DNA from: Bacteroidota bacterium
GTDB taxonomy: Bacteria; Bacteroidota; Bacteroidia; Bacteroidales; B18-G4
Length of the DNA stretch: 8,184 bases
Reading direction: 5' to 3'
Assembly: GCA_003648575.1 (NCBI GenBank)
Contig: QMPN01000131.1
Location: 1 to 8,184 of the forward strand
Shown here: positions 1 through 8,184 of the stretch, piece after piece
Layout of the letters: every line of letters begins with the position of its first letter
Position numbering within the stretch: position 1 is the first letter of the stretch
Program-made: the position numbers and the translations under genes
Notes under the pieces: generated by a model
Told to the model about the DNA's origin: nothing
What the model saw: only the letters and a program-made list of their open reading frames with translations
Databases searched by the model: none

Positions 1-119
1 AGTAACCAGTAACCAGTAACCAGTAACCAGTAACCAGTAACCAGTAACCAGTAACCAGTAACCAGTAACCAGTAACCAGTAACCAGTAACCAGTAACCAG
101 TAACCAGTAACCAGTATTC
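1..119. repeat. Heptanucleotide tandem array, unit AGTAACC (CCAGTAA)
   Basis: Sixteen perfect head-to-tail copies of AGTAACC plus four more bases fill positions 1-116 without a mismatch. Positions 117-119 (TTC) break the pattern. The array continues off the left edge, so its true length is unknown. It ends three bases before the stop codon of the minus-strand propeller gene, on the 3' side of that gene. No hairpin with a T-run is visible between gene and array. The perfection of the copies, against the degenerate heptad blocks elsewhere in the window, suggests recent expansion or homogenisation. Being at the window edge it could also mark an assembly edge, but related degenerate copies at 3536-3570 argue that the unit is genuine. 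Confidence 0.97.
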
Positions 120-2177
120 CTAATTCTTAATAATCTTCGTTGTATAAGAGCTGTTTTCGGAAATGACCTTCAGGAGATAAATCCCATTTGTAAGCTTGGA
201 AATATCCAACTGCATTGCTCCAGGAGTATCTGATATAATAAGTGGCTGGACTTCTTTCCCGGAAATATCATATAACAAGCTCGAATATCGAATTTCGGAT
301 AGCGGATATCGAATATTAACAACCTCCATTGTCGGGTTAGGATACACAATAACTTCAATATCTCTTTCAGGCTCTGAAAGCCCGGTAATCTGATCCAGCG
401 GCCGCTTCCAAACTCCACCGGCATTTATGCCGGCATACAGGTATCCATCATATACATGGAGTGAAAGTACCGGCGATCCAACAAGTCCCGTACTAACGAT
501 CTCCCAGCTGTTGCCCTGGTCATTGCTGCGATAAATTTCGCCTTCATCGGTACCGGCAAATATGATGTTCTCATGTGCATGAATACAGCGGATATAGCTT
601 TGTGGAGGAATTCCAATTCCGGCGGATGTCCAGGAAGTCCCCTGATTATTGCTTACGAAGATCCCTTCATACCTGCTGCCGGCAAATAATAAATCGCCTG
701 AAAATTCAAGGGCTGTAATATTCAGATCGGGCAATCCTGTATTGACAGATGTCCAGCTTTCCCCCAGGTTGAAAGAAAGGAAAACACCATTGTCGGAAGT
801 TCCTGCAAATATGAAGATTCCATCGGAAGCCAGAGCTCGGATATCGCCTGAGGTAATTCCTGTGTTTGCCCATGACCAGTCGGATCCATAGTTGTTACTT
901 TTAAAAATACCTTCATCCCTGCTCCCTGCAAAAACTGTTTCTCCACACAGGCAGAATGATTGTATCCATGCACTGCTAAGTCCGTTGTTGACTTTGGAGT
1001 ATGTAAATCCGTGGTCGGTGGAACGATAAATGCCCAGCATATCTGTGCCAGCAAAAACCAGGTTCTCCAAAGCAAAAACACTCCGAATCTCAACAGTCCC
1101 TATCGAGGTAGCACGGGCCCATGATGCTCCTTCATTAATGCTTGTGTAAAGTCCGGAGCCGTGGGTGCCGGTGATCAGTGCATTTGAGTTACTTGTCAGG
1201 GAACCGGCTCCTGCGTTGAAGCTGATGCTTCCGGTACACAGCGACCATGTGTTGCCATTGTCGATACTTTTATACATGTTCCCACTGGTAACCCCAACAA
1301 ACAGGGCATTGTCACTTGTTCCTATCGACCAGATTGTAGTTTCGGCCAGTCCTGAACTAACATTAATCCAGTTTTGGCCGGAATCATCTGATCGGTATAC
1401 ACCACTTCCGAATGATGCAGCATAAAGATATCCGTTCTGACTCGTAAACCCCTTTATTGAAGGGAGATTAGGGGAAGTGATCTTTGACCAGCTATTCCCG
1501 TTGTCATTGCTGACAAAAGCACCTGAAGAAAGCGTGCTTGTGAATACTTTTCCCTCAAAACAATAGATGGCCATGATATTGGGTTCCGTCAATCCATTAT
1601 TGATGGCTAACCATGTATCTCCGAAATCTGTAGACCTGAACATCCCTTCCTGATAGGTGCCTGCAAAAATGCTGATGTTATCTGAGGCCAGATAATAGAT
1701 GTATTTGACAGAGAGATTGCTGCTAAGCGATTCCCAGCTGGCTCCTGTATCTGCAGAGCGGTATAAGCCTCCCAAATATGTGCCTGCAAAAATATGATCG
1801 TGACAAACTGTTAATGTCTTCGTATAGGTTCCTTCCAGTTCATTTCCGGAAGGTTCCCAGCTGAGTCCATTATCATTTGTTCTGAAAACATTTTCATCTG
1901 TAGAAACAAATAGATAGTCTCCAAGACTCGTTAAGCATTTAGTATCGCAGCTTTTCAGCCCTTCATTACGAAAGTCCCAGCTGATACCTTCGTCCTCGCT
2001 GGCAAGAACACCACCACCGGTGGCTGCATAAAGCGTAGTATTGTCAGAGTGAATGCTTCTGACATATTTGCCGCCAGGGCCATTGGTTGGTTGCCATTGG
2101 GCAAATAGGCTTGTCGTGAACGACAGTGCGGTGATCCATAACGCAATCCGAAGGATGGGAATACGGATTTTAATCAT
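120..2177 (-). CDS. Secreted Asp-box (BNR-like) beta-propeller protein with type IX secretion tail
   Basis: Encodes a 685-residue protein of unknown specific function, probably exported and surface-attached or released. Residues 1-26 form a signal peptide: basic start MIKIR, a hydrophobic core, and likely cleavage after the Ala of SLFA. The body carries 13 Asp-boxes (S-x-D/N-x-G-x-x-W type) beginning near residues 60, 100, 141, 182, 223, 263, 304, 346, 386, 427, 468, 509 and 551. Their period is 40-42 residues, each with an upstream strand such as LFAGT and a YRS lead-in. A degenerate fourteenth blade ends at VWKRPL (about 589-594). Residues 611-685 match a Por secretion tail: VYPNPT, LYDISGK, then LTNGIYLLKV and a Lys-rich end. 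Such tails direct passage through the type IX system in Bacteroidota. I chose the ATG at 2177, since the signal peptide starts there. An in-frame TTG at 2219 would add 14 residues ahead of it. Asp-box folds occur in sialidases, sortilin and Ycf48-like proteins, but I see no sialidase active-site set. Confidence 0.93.
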   Translation of the reverse strand: MIKIRIPILRIALWITALSFTTSLFAQWQPTNGPGGKYVRSIHSDNTTLYAATGGGVLASEDEGISWDFRNEGLKSCDTKCLTSLGDYLFVSTDENVFRTNDNGLSWEPSGNELEGTYTKTLTVCHDHIFAGTYLGGLYRSADTGASWESLSSNLSVKYIYYLASDNISIFAGTYQEGMFRSTDFGDTWLAINNGLTEPNIMAIYCFEGKVFTSTLSSGAFVSNDNGNSWSKITSPNLPSIKGFTSQNGYLYAASFGSGVYRSDDSGQNWINVSSGLAETTIWSIGTSDNALFVGVTSGNMYKSIDNGNTWSLCTGSISFNAGAGSLTSNSNALITGTHGSGLYTSINEGASWARATSIGTVEIRSVFALENLVFAGTDMLGIYRSTDHGFTYSKVNNGLSSAWIQSFCLCGETVFAGSRDEGIFKSNNYGSDWSWANTGITSGDIRALASDGIFIFAGTSDNGVFLSFNLGESWTSVNTGLPDLNITALEFSGDLLFAGSRYEGIFVSNNQGTSWTSAGIGIPPQSYIRCIHAHENIIFAGTDEGEIYRSNDQGNSWEIVSTGLVGSPVLSLHVYDGYLYAGINAGGVWKRPLDQITGLSEPERDIEVIVYPNPTMEVVNIRYPLSEIRYSSLLYDISGKEVQPLIISDTPGAMQLDISKLTNGIYLLKVISENSSYTTKIIKN
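282..316. repeat. Five-unit heptad block inside the secretion-tail coding sequence
   Basis: Five consecutive seven-base units, consensus CGRATAT on the plus strand, lie wholly within the propeller gene. The first and last units are identical (CGAATAT); the three middle units differ from them at one or two positions. On the coding strand the block gives NIRYPLSEIRYS, where IRY recurs after seven residues (622-624 and 629-631), as expected because three heptads equal 21 bases. It falls in the variable stretch between the YPNP and LYDISGK motifs of the C-terminal domain, and the reading frame is intact on both sides. Confidence 0.85.
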
Positions 2178-2221
2178 TTGTCTGGCTTTTGTACAACTAA
2201 GATAAAAGAAAAATGGCAAAT

Positions 2222-2249
2222 GATACTAGATACTGTATATTTGATACAG
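2222..2249. repeat. Degenerate four-unit heptad block upstream of the propeller gene
   Basis: Four seven-base units. The first two are GATACTA and GATACTG, the third is strongly diverged, and the fourth is GATACAG. Read on the minus strand, two are TAGTATC and CAGTATC, the same unit as the CCAGTAT part of the 6571-6661 array but in the opposite orientation. The block lies 45 bases upstream of the ATG of the minus-strand propeller gene and eight bases beyond the stop codon of the broken gene at 2257-2473. It therefore occupies the space where a promoter or terminator would be expected. Confidence 0.7.
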
Positions 2250-2256
2250 CCAACTG

Positions 2257-2473
2257 CTAACCGCCTACTTCTACCAGATTAAAAAGCTGCTCAATCCTCT
2301 TGCCATCCAGTATCCATACCTGCTGTGTGTATATGCCCAACTGAGGTTTCCCTTTCATGCCGGAACGAAACCAGGGTCGAGATCGTTGATGCCAATGATA
2401 ATCACGGAATCAAGCTTAAATGCATCCCTGGCGAGATTTTTAATGCTTCTACTGTCGAATTGTGATCACGCAT
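2257..2473 (-). pseudogene. Frameshifted remnant of a small gene, family not recognised
   Basis: An ATG at 2473 follows an AAAGGA Shine-Dalgarno-like sequence (2478-2483, four-base spacer), 19 bases after the desaturase stop. Its frame gives only 23 codons (MRDHNSTVEALK..., stop at 2402-2404). A second frame, open from 2465 to a stop at 2355-2357, reads as ordinary protein: SIKNLARDAFKLDS then VIIIGINDLDPG. A third frame, ending at the TAG of 2257-2259, continues with FRSGMKGKPQLGIYTQQ and VWILDGKRIEQLFNLVEVGG. Two single-base losses relative to an ancestor would join the three frames into a product of about 72 residues. The hydrophobic/charged pattern and aromatic-DGK-(R/I) ending vaguely recall the last strands of SnoaL/NTF2-like proteins, but that is a guess. 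Alternatives are sequencing errors in a live gene or decayed sequence of another origin. Confidence 0.5.
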
Positions 2474-2492
2474 AGGTTCCTTTCTTAGTTTC

Positions 2493-3491
2493 TCAGATAG
2501 CTTCTTTGAAACTCACCAGTTTGTGTTTTGTTTCATCCCACAGGCGGTAGCGTACCGAACTAAACGACTTCCAGAAGGTAAGAGGCTCCTTTTGAAAGAT
2601 GGGATTTTCTTTATGGCACTTTTCAAGATAGTAATTGGGAATCTTCGGACCAAGGTGATGAATGTGGTGAAAACCAATATTACCTGTGAAAAATTGCAAT
2701 ATCCTGGGGAGCTTATAGTAGGATGAACCTTCCATGGCCATGGTCTTATAATCCCAGTTTTCGCTGCGTTCCCATATCACATCTTCAAACTGATGCTGTA
2801 CATAAAACATCCACACCCCGGCAATGGAAGCGATCAGCAGAATCGGCACCTGTATGAGCACGAAAGTCCAGAAACCGATAAAATATGAGATGAGAACGAT
2901 CAGAAGGATAAGTGTGAGTGTGGTCAGATGCGTTTGCAAGTGCATCTTGTTGGTTTGATTGGTGCCATGCAAACGGAACAAAAATGTAAAAAGAAAAAAG
3001 GGTACGATCAACAGCAGCATCACTGGATTGCGGTACCAGCGGTAATAGGATTGTTGCTTTGGAGTACTGTCCTTATATTCTTCAACCGTCATAGTCATTA
3101 CATCACCCACCCCGCGTTTGTCGAGGTTTCCCACAGTTTTATGATGTACCTGGTGTTCGTAATGCCAGCGGTGATAAGGAGTAAATACCATCATCCCGGT
3201 AATGATGCCGGTGATCCTGTTTGCCATTTCCGTCTTGAAAAACGATCCATGCCCGCAATCATGGAAGATGATAAATATTCTCACCAGAAAACCGGCAGCA
3301 GGAATAGATAAGGCCAGTGTTAGCCAGTATGATACTTCCATGCTGTAATACATGGCCACCAGCAGGCCAAAGTAAGGGACAAAGGAATTGATCAACTGCC
3401 ACCAGCTTCTCAGCGGACTGGGCTTTAGGTATTGACTGATTATCGTTGTCCAATTCGCCCAATCAGCTGTGTTTGTTTGTTCTTTGTTCAT
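2493..3491 (-). CDS. Membrane fatty acid desaturase (DesA-like, three-histidine-box)
   Basis: A 332-residue integral membrane di-iron desaturase that would insert a cis double bond into membrane-lipid acyl chains, tuning fluidity. All three histidine boxes are present: HDCGH at 77-81, HEHQVHH-type box with H113, H116 and H117 (preceded by H107 and H110), and FHHIHH with H275, H276, H278 and H279. H233 in VQHQFED is a further conserved histidine. Hydrophobic segments at about 36-76 and 155-224 form two hairpin-like pairs, with the boxes on the cytoplasmic side as in the family. The conserved GNIGFHHIHHLGPKIPNYYL run fits the delta-12/omega-6 (DesA) branch better than acyl-ACP or CoA front-end types, but regiospecificity cannot be read from sequence. 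The ATG at 3491 follows an A-rich leader (GAAAAGAACAAC) without a clear Shine-Dalgarno. It is divergent from gcvP across a 211-base gap. The broken gene follows 19 bases after its stop. Confidence 0.93.
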   Translation of the reverse strand: MNKEQTNTADWANWTTIISQYLKPSPLRSWWQLINSFVPYFGLLVAMYYSMEVSYWLTLALSIPAAGFLVRIFIIFHDCGHGSFFKTEMANRITGIITGMMVFTPYHRWHYEHQVHHKTVGNLDKRGVGDVMTMTVEEYKDSTPKQQSYYRWYRNPVMLLLIVPFFLFTFLFRLHGTNQTNKMHLQTHLTTLTLILLIVLISYFIGFWTFVLIQVPILLIASIAGVWMFYVQHQFEDVIWERSENWDYKTMAMEGSSYYKLPRILQFFTGNIGFHHIHHLGPKIPNYYLEKCHKENPIFQKEPLTFWKSFSSVRYRLWDETKHKLVSFKEAI

Positions 3492-3535
3492 GTTGTTCTT
3501 TTCAGACTATAAAGATAAGTTATTTTGGACGATAC

Positions 3536-3570
3536 CCAGTTACCAGTAACTAGTGACCAGCAACCAGTAA
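3536..3570. repeat. Five-unit degenerate CCAGTAA heptad block
   Basis: Five consecutive seven-base units with consensus CYAGYAA. Units starting at 3543 and 3564 are exactly CCAGTAA. Those at 3536 and 3557 differ at one base and that at 3550 at two. This is the unit and the orientation of the perfect array at 1-116, about 3.4 kb away. It sits in the divergent gap between the desaturase and gcvP, 45 bases upstream of the desaturase ATG and about 60 bases before the gcvP promoter box. Confidence 0.88.
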
Positions 3571-3630
3571 TGGCCTGTTAACTTTTTCACAATTAACTAA
3601 CACCTATAATTATTATTACAAGAAGATTAT

Positions 3631-3638
3631 TACTTTTG
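3631..3638 (+). promoter_or_regulatory. Bacteroidota-type -7 promoter box for gcvP
   Basis: TACTTTTG matches the Bacteroidota -7 consensus TAnnTTTG exactly and is followed by C, as is common. It lies in an AT-rich stretch (about 3582-3650), 64 bases before the gcvP ATG. A start of transcription about five to seven bases downstream would give a leader of roughly 58 bases. I see no good -33 TTTG at the expected distance upstream, which lowers confidence. Confidence 0.55.
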
Positions 3639-3650
3639 CGCTTTAATTCA

Positions 3651-3680
3651 GGTGCCGGGTACCGGATGCCGGATCCCGGG
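3651..3680 (+). repeat. GC-rich heptad block with hairpin potential in the gcvP leader
   Basis: Four consecutive seven-base units, consensus GRTNCCG (3651-3678), form a GC-rich island in AT-rich surroundings just after the predicted transcription start. The repeat also has dyad symmetry. CCGGG (3655-3659) can pair with CCCGG (3675-3679), and CCGG (3662-3665) with CCGG (3669-3672). A two-by-two internal mismatch separates the stems and an AUG loop (3666-3668) closes the hairpin. The leader RNA of gcvP could therefore carry a nine-pair hairpin about 23 bases before the start codon. Whether this regulates gcvP or is a by-product of the repeat is unknown. There is no T-run after it, so it is not an ordinary intrinsic terminator. 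Confidence 0.72.
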
Positions 3681-3702
3681 AAATTTAGATATTTGAGATA
3701 AG

Positions 3703-6570
3703 ATGCTAAGTAATAATTTTATTGACAGGCATAACGGCCCCAGGGAAAATGAAATTCCCGGAATGTTGGATACCATCGGTGTAAAAACCCTTGAAGAACT
3801 TATTGCACAAACTGTTCCTGCTTCTATCAGGATGAAGAATGAATTGGATCTTCCTGACGGGATGAATGAGCATGAATATATCAATCACCTGAGGGAGATC
3901 GGTGCTAAGAATAAGCTTTTCAAATCATATATCGGTATGGGTTATTATAACACCATCCTGCCGGGTGTGATCCAGCGGAATATCCTGGAAAATCCGGGCT
4001 GGTATACCTCATACACCCCTTACCAGGCTGAGATATCACAGGGCAGGCTGGAAGCACTGCTGAATTTTCAGACCATGGTGTCTGACCTCACAGCCATGCC
4101 GCTTGCCAATGCATCATTACTTGATGAAGGTACTGCTGCTGCAGAGGCCATGATCATGCTATACAATGCTCGGAGCAGAGCAGCTGCTAAAGCCGGTCTA
4201 AACAAGTTCTTTATTTCCGAAGGCTTGTTTCCCCAGACTAAAGAAGTGGTAAAGGCAAGGGCGCTTCCGCTTGGCATCGAGATCATCACAGGGAATGAAG
4301 ATGGGATTGAATTTGTTGAAGGACTTTTTGGCGCACTGATACAGTATCCTGACCAATTTGGTGAGGTAAAGGATTACCGCTCATTTGTGGAGCAGGCACA
4401 TGAAAAGGAGGTTGCAGTAGCCGTTGCCGCCGACCTACTCAGCCTGGCATTGCTAAGCCCTCCGGGCGAATGGGGTGCTGATGTGGTTGTTGGAACTACA
4501 CAACGCTTTGGGGTTCCCATGGGATATGGTGGACCGCATGCAGCTTACTTCGCTACCCACGAAAAATATAAACGAAATATACCCGGAAGGATCATCGGAC
4601 AATCGGTCGATGCTGAAGGAAACCCGGCCTTGCGTATGGCTCTCCAGACACGTGAACAGCATATTAAACGTGAAAGGGCTACCTCGAATATCTGTACTGC
4701 ACAGGCCCTGCTGGCCATTATGGCAGGAATGTATGGCGCCTACCACGGGCCTGAAGGTTTAAAGGCGATTGCCCGCGACATCAATGATTATACTTGTATC
4801 CTGGGCGGAGTGCTGCAGGAACTTGGTATGGAACTGCATACAAAACAATTCTTCGATACGTTGGTGATCAGCCTGCCGGATGATCTCGACCAGAATGCTG
4901 TGATGGAAGTTGCCGTGCAAAAAGAGATCAACTTCCGCTATTTCGAAGATGGCCGCATCGGCATCAGCCTGGATGAGACCACCTCTGCACAGGATGCACG
5001 AGATATCATTTCAGTGTTTGTTAATCTGCGTGGCTTCGAACCTACCCAAGAGCATGAAGTTGAAGTTTGTGTGCCTCAGTCATTGTGCAGGACCAGCGAG
5101 TTCATGATACATGAGATATTTAATAGCATGCATTCCGAAACGGAGATGATGCGCTATATGAAAAAGCTGGAGAACCGCGACCTGGCCCTCAACAGGACTA
5201 TGATCCCATTGGGCTCTTGCACCATGAAACTCAATGCCGCTGCTGAACTGTTTCCATTGAGCTGGCCGGAATTCGGTGCTTTGCATCCCTTCGTACCCGA
5301 AGATCAGGCAGAAGGATATACTGAACTTATAGAAAACCTGGGAAGTGACCTTTGTGAGATCACCGGGTTTTCTGCCATGTCGTTCCAGCCCAACTCCGGT
5401 GCATCGGGAGAGTATACAGGTTTGCTGGTGATAAAAGCATATCATGAAAGCAGGGGAGAAGGGTATCGGAACATTTGTCTCATCCCTTCATCGGCACATG
5501 GTACCAACCCTGCCAGCTCTGTTATGGCGGGCATGAAGGTTGTGATCGTAAAATGCGATGAGCAGGGAAATATCGATATCGACGACCTAAAAGCCAGGAC
5601 CAAAGAGCATCATGAAAACCTGGCAGCCATCATGATCACCTATCCTTCCACTCATGGCGTGTTTGAAGAATCAGTTCTGGATATCATGGATATCATCCAT
5701 GAACATGGCGGACAGGTATACATGGACGGCGCCAATATGAATGCACAGGTTGGCCTGACAAGTCCCGGATTGATCGGGGCGGATGTCTGCCACTTAAATC
5801 TTCACAAGACTTTTGCCATCCCACATGGCGGTGGTGGCCCCGGCGTTGGACCGATAGGCGTAGCAGAACACCTGGCAGAATTCCTTCCGGGAAGCCCGGT
5901 AGTTGAAACAGGTGGTCAGAATGCCATCGGGGCTGTTGCTGCAGCACCCTTCGGCAGTGCCATGATACTTCCGATCTCATACGGCTACATCAAGTTGCTT
6001 GGCCGTGACGGCCTCAGGATAGCCACCGAAATGGCCATTCTTAATGCCAACTACCTCAAGACCAAGCTGGAGAAGCATTATAAGATCCTGTATACAGGGA
6101 AAAATGGTCGCGTGGCCCATGAGATGATTCTGGATTGCAATCAGTTTCTGAAAACTGCTGATGTGATGGTGGTAGATATCGCCAAGCGTCTGATGGATTT
6201 TGGTTTCCATGCCCCTACAGTAGCATTCCCGGTTATTGGAACATTGATGGTGGAGCCAACGGAAAGCGAACCTCTCTCAGAACTCGACCGTTTCGTCGAA
6301 GCCATGATGGTTATACGTGAAGAGATCCGTCAGGTAGAAGAAGGGAATTGCTCGAAGGAGGACAACATGATCAAACATGCCCCACACACCCTGGCCATGG
6401 TCATGGATGAAGACTGGAAGTTTCCTTATAGCAAAAAAGATGCTGCATTCCCCAACGGAGTACCTGAACGCGATAAGTACTGGCCTGATGTCACACGCAT
6501 CGATGATGCCCAGGGCGACAGAAACCTTATCTGCACCTGCGGAACCCCTGAAGATTACGTTGAGAAATAG
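3703..6570 (+). CDS. gcvP: Glycine dehydrogenase (decarboxylating), glycine cleavage system P-protein
   Basis: A 955-residue PLP enzyme that decarboxylates glycine and passes the remaining aminomethyl group to the lipoyl arm of the H-protein, the first step of the glycine cleavage system feeding one-carbon folate metabolism. It acts in the cytoplasm. The length is that of the single-chain (homodimer) form, with N- and C-terminal aminotransferase-like halves rather than separate GcvPA/GcvPB. Conserved stretches include YTSYTPYQAEISQGR (101-115), LLDEGTAAAEAM (139-150), QRFGVPMGYGGPH, PLGSCTMKLNA, SAHGTNPAS (597-605) and the PLP-lysine site HLNLHKTFAIPHGGGGPG with Lys702. The N-terminus RHNGPRENE aligns with the usual start, supporting the ATG at 3703. 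The Shine-Dalgarno is weak (GAGATAAG region). No gcvT, gcvH or lpd lies next to it. The leader is too short for a glycine riboswitch. Its TAG is followed directly by the heptad array, and it converges on nnr. Confidence 0.98.
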   Translation: MLSNNFIDRHNGPRENEIPGMLDTIGVKTLEELIAQTVPASIRMKNELDLPDGMNEHEYINHLREIGAKNKLFKSYIGMGYYNTILPGVIQRNILENPGWYTSYTPYQAEISQGRLEALLNFQTMVSDLTAMPLANASLLDEGTAAAEAMIMLYNARSRAAAKAGLNKFFISEGLFPQTKEVVKARALPLGIEIITGNEDGIEFVEGLFGALIQYPDQFGEVKDYRSFVEQAHEKEVAVAVAADLLSLALLSPPGEWGADVVVGTTQRFGVPMGYGGPHAAYFATHEKYKRNIPGRIIGQSVDAEGNPALRMALQTREQHIKRERATSNICTAQALLAIMAGMYGAYHGPEGLKAIARDINDYTCILGGVLQELGMELHTKQFFDTLVISLPDDLDQNAVMEVAVQKEINFRYFEDGRIGISLDETTSAQDARDIISVFVNLRGFEPTQEHEVEVCVPQSLCRTSEFMIHEIFNSMHSETEMMRYMKKLENRDLALNRTMIPLGSCTMKLNAAAELFPLSWPEFGALHPFVPEDQAEGYTELIENLGSDLCEITGFSAMSFQPNSGASGEYTGLLVIKAYHESRGEGYRNICLIPSSAHGTNPASSVMAGMKVVIVKCDEQGNIDIDDLKARTKEHHENLAAIMITYPSTHGVFEESVLDIMDIIHEHGGQVYMDGANMNAQVGLTSPGLIGADVCHLNLHKTFAIPHGGGGPGVGPIGVAEHLAEFLPGSPVVETGGQNAIGAVAAAPFGSAMILPISYGYIKLLGRDGLRIATEMAILNANYLKTKLEKHYKILYTGKNGRVAHEMILDCNQFLKTADVMVVDIAKRLMDFGFHAPTVAFPVIGTLMVEPTESEPLSELDRFVEAMMVIREEIRQVEEGNCSKEDNMIKHAPHTLAMVMDEDWKFPYSKKDAAFPNGVPERDKYWPDVTRIDDAQGDRNLICTCGTPEDYVEK

Positions 6571-6661
6571 TGTTGAGTGTTGAGGGTTGGGTGTTGAGTT
6601 AGTATCCAGTATCCCGTATCCAATATCCAGTATCTAGTATCCAGTATCCAGCACCTAGTGT
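6571..6661. repeat. Compound heptad array filling the gcvP-nnr convergent gap
   Basis: Thirteen uninterrupted seven-base units begin at the base after the gcvP stop codon. Units 1-4 (6571-6598) are TGTTGAG, three of them exact. Units 5-13 (6599-6661) are CCAGTAT variants, three exact and the rest with one or two changes. The unit sequence changes while the seven-base register is kept. The last unit, CTAGTGT, contains the stop codon of nnr (CTA at 6655-6657 on the plus strand). The 84 bases between the two stop codons hold nothing else, with no inverted repeat plus T-run that would serve as a bidirectional terminator. Confidence 0.93.
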
Positions 6662-8169
6662 CCCTGCAACGCCCGATATGCATACCCGATCTGCCCCGTG
6701 ATATCGCTGGCCAGCGAGGCTTCATATCCAAGATCCTCTGATGCCAGGTCGCCGGCAAGGCCATGGAGATAGGTTCCAACAAGACATGCTTCCAAGGATG
6801 TATATCCCTGGGCCAGCAGACCGAGAATAATTCCGGTGAGTACATCGCCGCTTCCTCCGGTTGCCATACCCGGGTTTCCGGTTGAATTGTAAAAGCATCG
6901 TCCGTCAGGGCAGCTGATGGCTGTCGCATATCCCTTCAAGACCACATAAGCATTATGCTTCATAGAGAATTCGCGTTGCTGCTTATCCCTTTCAAAGGCG
7001 TTGCCGCTTTTTCCAACGAGCCGCTCAAACTCTCCGGGATGGGGGGTGAAGATGCTGCCTGCCGGGATAAATCCCAGCCATGTTTTGTTCTCGCCCAGGA
7101 TGTTGATCGCATCTGCATCGAACAATATGGGTAAGCCTGTATTCTGGATGAGCACCTTCAAGGCAGTTTGTGTGTCTTTTTCCTGTCCGATTCCGGGTCC
7201 TATGCCGATGGCATTGTAGGGGTCGAGTACGGGCATTTCCGAGTAAGTAGTTTCCGAGGGGTCGATGCTGCACATGGCTTCCGGAACGGCAGTTTGTATG
7301 ATGTCATACCCCTTTTGTGGGACATGCGTTGTGAGCAGGCCCGATCCTGTGCGCATGCAAGCCTTCGATGCCAGGACGGCGGCACCCATCTTGCCATAGC
7401 ATCCGGCGATGAGCAAAGCATGTCCGAATTTGCCTTTATGATCAAATTTGTTCCTTCTCTTGATCATCGAGGAAATATCTTTTTTCATGACAAAATAATC
7501 GGCCTTTTCGATGCCGTTCACGAAGTCAGGATGAAGCTTGATGTTCATGATCTCCCATTCTTTCACATAGGGGAGGTTTTCAGCATACATGAAGGCCTTC
7601 TTTGCAAATTCGAAGGTGAGGGTGATATCAGCAAGGATGATGGCCCCGCCACTGTCAATACTGGGTTTATCAGCAAATAATCCTGACGGGATGTCGATGG
7701 CAGCAACTTTTGCGTTTTGATGATTAAGGTATTCGATCACCTCTGCAATAAAGCCCGTAACCGGTTTCGACAGTCCTGATCCGAAAACGGCATCTACGAT
7801 CCAATCACAGTCGAGCTTTTCAGGTAATTCGTCAGCTTTGCTGATCTCGCTGATCTTTACCTTTTTCTGGTATTTCAGGTTATCAAGGTTGATGTCGAAG
7901 TCTTCTGATGACTTATCAGAGTACCTCAGCACAAAAACCTCAACCCGGTAATCTTTTTTAACCAGCAGTCGCGCAATGGCCAATCCATCACCTCCATTGT
8001 TCCCGAGCCCGCAGAATATCTTGATCCTGTCGGTACTTGCGAAATTCTTTGTCATCCATTTATAGCAGACCTTGGCGGCCCGTTCCATCAGATCGATGGA
8101 GTCGACGGGTTCATTCTTAATGGTATAGGCGTCTGCTTCCCTGACTTGTTCTATTGAGAGGATCTTCAT
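6655..8169 (-). CDS. nnr: Bifunctional NAD(P)HX epimerase / ADP-dependent NAD(P)HX dehydratase
   Basis: A 504-residue metabolite-repair enzyme that restores hydrated, damaged NADH and NADPH. The N-terminal YjeF_N half (about 1-215) epimerises R- and S-NAD(P)HX; it shows GLGNNGGDG (54-62), VDAVFGSG with Asp126, and AAIDIPSG (156-163). The C-terminal ribokinase-like half (about 230-500) dehydrates S-NAD(P)HX using ADP (or ATP in some organisms). It shows KGKFGHALLIAG, IGIGPGIG (321-328), FDADAIN, FTPHPGEF (374-381), VVLKG and MATGGSGDVLTG (435-446), with Asp442 as the likely catalytic residue. Length and domain order are those of the usual bacterial fusion. The ATG at 8169 gives the standard N-terminus (MKILSIEQVREAD). 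Only 15 bases upstream are visible, so promoter and operon partners are outside the window. The TAG stop lies inside the last heptad of the neighbouring array. Confidence 0.97.
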   Translation of the reverse strand: MKILSIEQVREADAYTIKNEPVDSIDLMERAAKVCYKWMTKNFASTDRIKIFCGLGNNGGDGLAIARLLVKKDYRVEVFVLRYSDKSSEDFDINLDNLKYQKKVKISEISKADELPEKLDCDWIVDAVFGSGLSKPVTGFIAEVIEYLNHQNAKVAAIDIPSGLFADKPSIDSGGAIILADITLTFEFAKKAFMYAENLPYVKEWEIMNIKLHPDFVNGIEKADYFVMKKDISSMIKRRNKFDHKGKFGHALLIAGCYGKMGAAVLASKACMRTGSGLLTTHVPQKGYDIIQTAVPEAMCSIDPSETTYSEMPVLDPYNAIGIGPGIGQEKDTQTALKVLIQNTGLPILFDADAINILGENKTWLGFIPAGSIFTPHPGEFERLVGKSGNAFERDKQQREFSMKHNAYVVLKGYATAISCPDGRCFYNSTGNPGMATGGSGDVLTGIILGLLAQGYTSLEACLVGTYLHGLAGDLASEDLGYEASLASDITGQIGYAYRALQGH

Positions 8170-8184
8170 TAGCTTGGTTCTAAA

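Follow-up and report, generated by a model that had tools for sequence, protein, structure and literature searches.

Short tandem arrays in Bacteroidota favour a seven-base period and seem to use words particular to each genome

An 8,184-base stretch of a Bacteroidota bacterium genome (assembly GCA_003648575.1, contig QMPN01000131.1, positions 1 to 8,184; the whole stretch is called the window here) holds several short tandem-repeat blocks that share a period of seven bases while using different units. What keeps the period while the words change? An earlier note, made from the letters alone, offered either a mechanism that measures or copies seven bases or a common ancestral repeat that drifts as it expands by slippage. 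Our analysis of the window and of related genomes points to a family of short, mostly intergenic tandem arrays particular to the genome, with units of 7 and less often 8 or 9 bases, that would expand by slippage, drift in sequence and be copied from array to array. We put the probability of this reading at roughly 0.6. An excess of period 7 in Bacteroidetes is already known; less expected are genome dialects of repeat words, seemingly copied between arrays.

Period-7 blocks of the window

Seven blocks can be told apart, listed here with their period-7 scores (strand is given where a block was read on one):

1-116: perfect CCAGTAA array of 16.6 copies, truncated at the window edge and separated by 3 bases from the open reading frame (ORF) at 120-2219 (minus strand), at the stop end of that ORF; score 109
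281-316: degenerate TCGAATA/GGATAGC/GGATATC array of 5 units inside the 120-2219 ORF, at about residues 635-647, in its Por_Secre_tail part; score 14
2222-2249, minus-strand reading: some four degenerate CCAGTAT-family units; score 6
3536-3570: degenerate CCAGTAA/CCAGTTA array between gcvP and the divergently oriented desaturase ORF; score 10.5
3651-3680: degenerate GGTACCG/GGATGCC array directly upstream of gcvP; score 12
6569-6599: TGTTGAG array of 4.4 units, beginning within the gcvP stop codon; score 14
6601-6663: CCAGTAT array of 9 units, overlapping by 9 bases the stop end of the converging ORF at 6655-8169 (minus strand); score 29

The period is real. Resampling the window 200 times under a Markov-2 model, its first 116 bases excluded, gave a top period-7 score of 10.5, and six of the seven blocks lie at or above it, with 3536-3570 tying the best resample (1/200). 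The exception, 2222-2249, is not significant alone (13 of 21 lag-7 matches; resample fraction 0.155, a lower bound as runs under 8 were unscored); we count it as a block on the strength of its units, which on the other strand match those of the CCAGTAT family, at distance 0 to 6601-6663. The earlier note's six blocks thus hold up in their period, with two amendments: its block at 6571-6661 is two arrays, which makes seven, and 2222-2249 does not stand by itself. Only 1-116 is perfect; the other blocks match at 62-83% of positions at lag 7.

Tandem Repeats Finder gave period-7 rows at 1-116, 281-316, 3653-3679, 6569-6599 and 6601-6651, and a separate scan of periods 4 to 14 added 3536-3570. The remaining Tandem Repeats Finder rows had periods 14 and 21, multiples of seven, apart from two two-copy rows at 3977-3995 (period 10) and 5678-5696 (period 9); the latter was also the sole array in the scan with a period other than a multiple of seven. 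Tandem Repeats Finder also gave a weak period-7 row rich in insertions and deletions (TTTGTTC, score 34, 3476-3501) where the desaturase ORF starts, which is absent from the earlier note.

The words themselves are related. A CCAGTAN family is common to 1-116, 2222-2249 (other strand), 3536-3570 and 6601-6663, while 281-316 and 3651-3680 each come within one mismatch of some unit of 6601-6663; the TGTTGAG block is at least two mismatches from every other block. Units within one mismatch of each other occur in 8 of the 21 block pairs, against 2.9 ± 1.4 in 300 column permutations, 0.3% of which reach eight. Judged by their units, the blocks look like one local repeat family. The differing units of the earlier note are therefore several words, with TGTTGAG apart, but four of the blocks share a single family.

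Could the arrays be an artefact of assembly, or contamination? The perfect array 1-116 lies at the window edge, as happens when a short-read assembly stops in a repeat. The other blocks, however, are internal to the window, found both between genes and within them, and similar arrays lie inside contigs of 2.6 and 4.1 Mb (G121:C1 and G194:C1), leaving this explanation barely credible.

Seven is a preferred, not a strict, length

A GcvP search returned 590 matches, the best 80 of which were kept as loci (closest 70% identical). Most of the 80 came from Bacteroidota groups and about nine did not (for example L031, Sideroxydans, and L063, Balneola); a few of the non-Bacteroidota loci bear arrays (L019, L031). 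Added to these were stretches from contigs of genomes G001-G008, from six genomes with pattern matches and one single-contig genome, and from relatives of G001 and others with earlier matches. The six genomes and the single-contig one were mostly picked for pattern matches, yet their stretches were not positioned at arrays. For the period count, loci picked for arrays and pattern-match loci were excluded; the sample comprised 180 loci and 3,232,206 bases, mostly of relatives and mostly from draft genomes. ORFs were called by a simple caller.

Outside ORFs, the 180 loci held 61 arrays at period 7, 23 at period 8 and 12 at period 9, with 5 at 16, 4 at 14, 3 each at 15, 18 and 20, 2 each at 6 and 11, one each at 13 and 19, and none at 4, 5, 10 or 12. 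Inside ORFs there were 5 each at periods 6 and 7, 4 each at 12 and 18, 2 each at 9 and 15, and one each at 10 and 14. One Markov-2 resample of the same loci gave zero arrays. A single genome, G005, contributed 28 of the 66 period-7, 15 of the 23 period-8 and 11 of the 14 period-9 arrays, which makes 54 arrays with units of 7-9 bases within its 0.26 Mb. Without it, and with coding arrays kept, 38 arrays remained at period 7, 8 at period 8, 5 at period 6, 4 at period 12, 3 at period 9 and one at period 10, with none at 4 or 5. The excess of period seven over its neighbours between five and nine, which the earlier note had proposed to look for, is thus borne out in the stretches examined, with or without G005. 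The trait is uneven, a period-7 array being present in 35 of the 180 loci. Seven is the preferred length, not a strict one.

How arrays change

Within arrays, likeness is greatest between adjacent units. From 0.793 at lag 1, unit identity declines to 0.529 by lag 15 (91 arrays, including those of G001 loci picked for arrays), and without G005 and G001 the drop from lag 1 to lag 4 is 0.09, against -0.001 ± 0.017 with unit order shuffled (17 arrays). Such decay with distance points to local duplication followed by mutation. Together with the kinship of words in the window, it fits the idea of an ancestral repeat drifting as it expands.

Arrays are also absent from the gaps of close relatives. 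Fifteen period-7 arrays lay in close locus pairs, and 8 of them had colinear flanks (72-83% identity) in a partner without a period-7 array at that place: four in L075, two of which are the arms of one hairpin, two in L037 and one each in L043 and L047. Two further rows are one array kept in L074 and L077 (left flank 95%), L077 having 2.4 kb more between gene and array; the other five, with no colinear flanks, were set aside. Neighbouring units most alike and arrays absent from sister gaps argue for slippage with drift.

Arrays of different period stand side by side within the same genomes. In L231 one word occurs as adjacent 7- and 8-base units (CTCGAAT and CTCGAATC), and L149 has the same arrangement (GTTATTG and GGTTATTA). 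Mixed-period neighbours numbered 12 pairs, against 4.2 by random placement, and 6 of the 12 were deletion-related with at most one mismatch (null 25%); these figures are no more than suggestive. Because 8- and 9-base arrays accompany 7-base ones, and one word takes both 7- and 8-base form in L231, a mechanism that measures exactly seven bases finds no support.

Some larger patterns were seen, mostly by eye. Single arrays of G001 reach 0.7 kb, and blocks of units are themselves repeated (L179, L189). In the array-picked G001 loci L173, L176, L179, L180 and L189, 8-base arrays (AATTCGAC, AATGGAAG) precede 7-base arrays of ACTGSCA type in constant order, resembling one composite element. G001 also has a 9-base mix of two words, ACTCTAAGT and ACTTTAGGC (or their other strand), in irregular order at L176 5986-6025, L187 4517-4555, L191 1019-1105 and L192 5221-5367; the two words differ by three simultaneous transitions, and similar AGTACTTRR words occur in G005. 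Near its arrays, G005 has other dispersed degenerate words of about 7 to 10 bases around ACTAAGGC and ACGCAGATGACACTGATT (L006 6780-6930; L151 10360-10400, 10740-10830 and 11150-11270).

Genome dialects

Sharing of exact words was counted between arrays more than 2 kb apart, with columns permuted within each array as the null. In G005, 81 of 357 distant pairs of period-7 arrays share a word (null 13.4 ± 3.3), as do 50 of 99 at period 8 (2.9 ± 1.6) and 21 of 49 at period 9 (0.2 ± 0.5). G014 shows the same in 4 of 10 distant pairs (0.4 ± 0.6), while G036, with 1 of 3 against 0.1, has too few to tell. G001 had 504 of 1341 at period 7 (null 69.6), a figure inflated because its loci were picked for RGTT arrays, followed by 148 of 174 (14.3) and 1 of 3 (0).

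Between genomes, sharing stays at the level of the null. At period 7, 34 genome pairs share a word, against 35.1 ± 5.2 expected (72 arrays from 22 genomes, with the window, L074 and L077 included); at period 8 the count is 0 against 0.6, and at period 9, 0 against 0. We reject a universal vocabulary of whole words on the period-7 count. Each genome seems to use its own repeat words.

A competing account is that each array arose alone by slippage from local random sequence, shared words reflecting the oligonucleotide habits of the genome. Local decay of unit identity and the array-free sister gaps fit it, and among the flank matches listed (40 of 83 in G001, 40 of 72 in G005) no single element flanks all arrays. 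Word sharing in G005, however, exceeds the permutation null sixfold to about a hundredfold, while the commonest array words are not enriched elsewhere: the 60 commonest 7-mers of its arrays occur 4063 times outside arrays, against 3951 ± 288 for permuted words, and the array 8-mers are rarer than permuted words (719 against 1141 ± 83). As array words are unenriched outside arrays, words common throughout the genome do not explain the G005 dialect, and we regard independent local origin as doubtful. Copying between arrays, although we saw no such event, is the simplest account of that dialect.

Placement, word preference and folding

Placement and word preference bear on the possibility that the arrays are binding sites for a translational or transcriptional regulator or a nucleoid protein, an idea put forward earlier for TAACTGA in Beggiatoaceae. 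In an earlier set of 100 arrays of 7-9 bases, 86 were intergenic, 8 lay in ORFs and 6 at locus edges, so that 86 of the 94 placed arrays lie between genes, as binding sites might, although ORFs of at least 90 codons take up 90% of the bases. Divergent gaps were somewhat under-used (14 arrays, about 23 expected by gap length), against 62 in tandem gaps (51 expected) and 10 in convergent ones (12 expected), and the word bias within the phylum, described below, would also suit a bound sequence. On the other side, the ACT-bearing strand runs with the genes in 24 clusters and against them in 20 (co-directed gaps, G001 and G005), which gives no link to direction; whole words differ between genomes, and sister species lack the arrays. 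We think a binding function quite unlikely.

Word use was surveyed by pattern. Arrays found by a tetramer spaced at seven bases seemed to combine a fixed tetramer with a free triplet, a pattern probably due in large part to the tetramer-based detection: tetramer letters agree at 0.515 in the first unit beyond the core and at 0.345 at the fourth, and triplet letters of adjacent inner units at 0.359. Among the matches listed, Bacteroidota often vary the triplet between units, whereas others mostly repeat one unit. Four consecutive copies of ACTGSCN turned up in 9 of 59 relatives, G001 among them, and the reversed pattern in 2. In the phylum of G051 (presumably Pseudomonadota; locus L031), ACTG spaced by seven matched 10 of 160 genomes and its reverse 9 (hand count). 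Across 53 genomes, RGTT occurred at period 7 in 35 (its reverse also in 35, hand count), at period 8 in 19 and at period 6 in 27, the last with few matches each; as RGTT and its reverse are equally frequent at spacing seven, it is the period and not the word that is common there. An early trinucleotide enrichment (ACT 30 against 20, z 2.8, 71 units) was unconvincing across 32 classes.

The repeats could instead exist as arms of transcription-terminator or other hairpins. Some paired inverted arrays fold far better than shuffles (L282 440-560, z -7.75; L284 410-520, z -5.64; L075 12890-12990, shortly past gcvP, z -8.10; and, more weakly, L285, z -3.06). Yet an inverted copy lies within 150 bases of just 5 of 116 arrays; inverted matches of at least 18 occur in 4 of 254 flanks (controls 0 and 0), and of at least 13 in 8 (controls 5 and 3). 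Three stretches of the window fold no better than shuffles (270-325, z -0.86; 3641-3690, z -1.23; 6560-6665, z -0.07). That the repeats are such arms is very unlikely, and we ruled hairpins out as an explanation of the class, being too rare.

Proposed origin of the arrays

In the reading that we prefer, arrays would grow and shrink by whole units through slipped-strand replication, so that the period survives while point mutations alter the word. A single-base insertion or deletion followed by re-expansion could turn 7-base arrays into 8-base ones and back. Since words are re-used at distant sites of one genome, arrays must, on this proposal, also be copied between sites; ectopic recombination, gene conversion or another copy-and-paste route might do so before drift erases the words.

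Several observations weigh against this reading. The words are not wholly free. Among 395 genomes from the phylum to which G001 belongs (Bacteroidetes), 30 carry CCAGTAN repeated four times, with at most one mismatch, and 8 the reversed pattern; tetramers spaced by seven are used unevenly among 158 genomes of that phylum: ACTG in 59, CTGA in 58, GTCA in 37, AGTC in 32, GCTA in 26, CGTA in 21, ATCG in 18 and ATGC in 9 (GTCA, CTGA, GCTA and CGTA being reversed controls that were tallied by hand). Free drift alone would not predict such bias, and CTGA, a control, equals ACTG in standing. Variation among unit positions is likewise uneven (18 of 64 arrays at p<0.01). The permutation null preserves base composition and not longer k-mer habits, for which the count outside arrays gives cover in G005 alone. 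The comparisons, all between genomes further apart than nearly identical strains, showed no copying event. Finally, flanks of array clusters share pieces (83 matches in G001, 72 in G005), and those of G005 include matches of 30-80 bases at 85-91% that are other degenerate repeats; arrays may therefore travel with other repeats, perhaps in a composite mobile element.

A bolder version holds that many Bacteroidota actively and repeatedly copy the words a genome currently uses into intergenic DNA, in a 7-9-base step and by an undescribed enzyme, with a fast-changing dialect in each lineage and a lasting lean to ACTG/CTGA words; we consider it unlikely. If arrays do copy each other, bacterial intergenic DNA shows concerted evolution like that of eukaryotic satellites. 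G005, with drifting words and 7- and 8-base forms side by side, would be a natural record of the step size and the copying rule.

Comparison with known repeats

Several heptanucleotide words per genome are a feature of the short tandemly repeated repetitive (STRR) sequences of filamentous cyanobacteria. The arrays described here resemble them in this respect, a likeness drawn from description, and the earlier note was right to draw the parallel. The period-7 excess in Bacteroidetes is itself already in print (PMC4060949). Bacterial heptanucleotide excess has been on record since 2007 (Mrazek 2007, as cited in PMC4679880), and in Mrazek and Huang (2014) the Bacteroidetes median is +0.75 for 7n3, every other unit length between 4 and 11 standing at 0 (PMC4060949). 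As in their long simple sequence repeats, 7-base units here exceed chance and, in the relatives' stretches, seven is favoured over neighbouring lengths. Their counts concern exact tandem repeats, as we understand the pattern codes, whereas our arrays are mostly degenerate and drift along their length, and some genomes add 8- and 9-base companions with genome-specific words.

MacGregor (2015) described TAACTGA arrays in marine Beggiatoaceae, cyanobacteria and five Bacteroidetes (PMC4679880). Wherever that study compared corresponding gaps, as in relatives of Aequorivita and Gramella, the relatives had no such arrays; other heptamer repeats occur beside TAACTGA in Aequorivita and Gramella, and in Elizabethkingia, and contigs end in arrays (PMC4679880). 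Our arrays are likewise dispersed, mostly intergenic, missing in gaps of relatives and in places found at contig ends. In Beggiatoaceae, TAACTGA is one word with rare near variants, mostly just upstream of start codons (PMC4679880), whereas here several related words occur with no link to gene direction (strand checked in G001 and G005), and none of the window blocks contains the unit TAACTGA. To explain the favoured size, seven bases has been proposed to be the length in contact with the polymerase (passed on in PMC4679880 and repeated in PMC4692102).

Xanthomonas GGGAATC/(GGGANTN)n and Nostoc GGGGA(C/T)T repeats are, like ours, heterogeneous heptamers with fixed and free positions and many copies per genome, and they too vary in length and sequence between close species (PMC4692102). 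They are G-rich and were studied as quadruplex formers (PMC4692102), while the window words do not have a run of three or more G in each unit. Calothrix has three heptanucleotides (PMC4692102). One survey finds strong enrichment, in prokaryotic phyla, of a subset of repeats whose units measure six to nine bases; its passages on them deal with neither heptamers nor genome-specific words of Bacteroidota (PMC12699852). A survey of prokaryote satellites reports families derived from heptamers (PMC6749651). Among the matches listed in open-access literature, none was, by title and abstract opening, on degenerate genome-specific 7-9-base dialects in Bacteroidota.

Gene context of the window

Besides the blocks, the window holds four main ORFs; it has no match in Rfam:

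120-2219, minus strand: 699-residue ORF with Sortilin/BNR-type repeats and a C-terminal Por_Secre_tail (residues 625-697), containing block 281-316
2493-3491, minus strand: fatty acid desaturase ORF
3703-6570, plus strand: gcvP, glycine cleavage system P protein
6655-8169, minus strand: YjeF_N/Carb_kinase ORF, of NAD(P)HX epimerase-dehydratase type

Translated, the array at 281-316 gives NIRYPLSEIRYS, a peptide within the secretion-tail region. Seven codons span three 7-base units, and every frame of an array free of stops encodes one and the same cyclic peptide. Arrays at 1-282 of L237 and at 1-116 of the window stand at contig or window ends, which suggests that assemblies may break in arrays and that draft genomes may undercount them.

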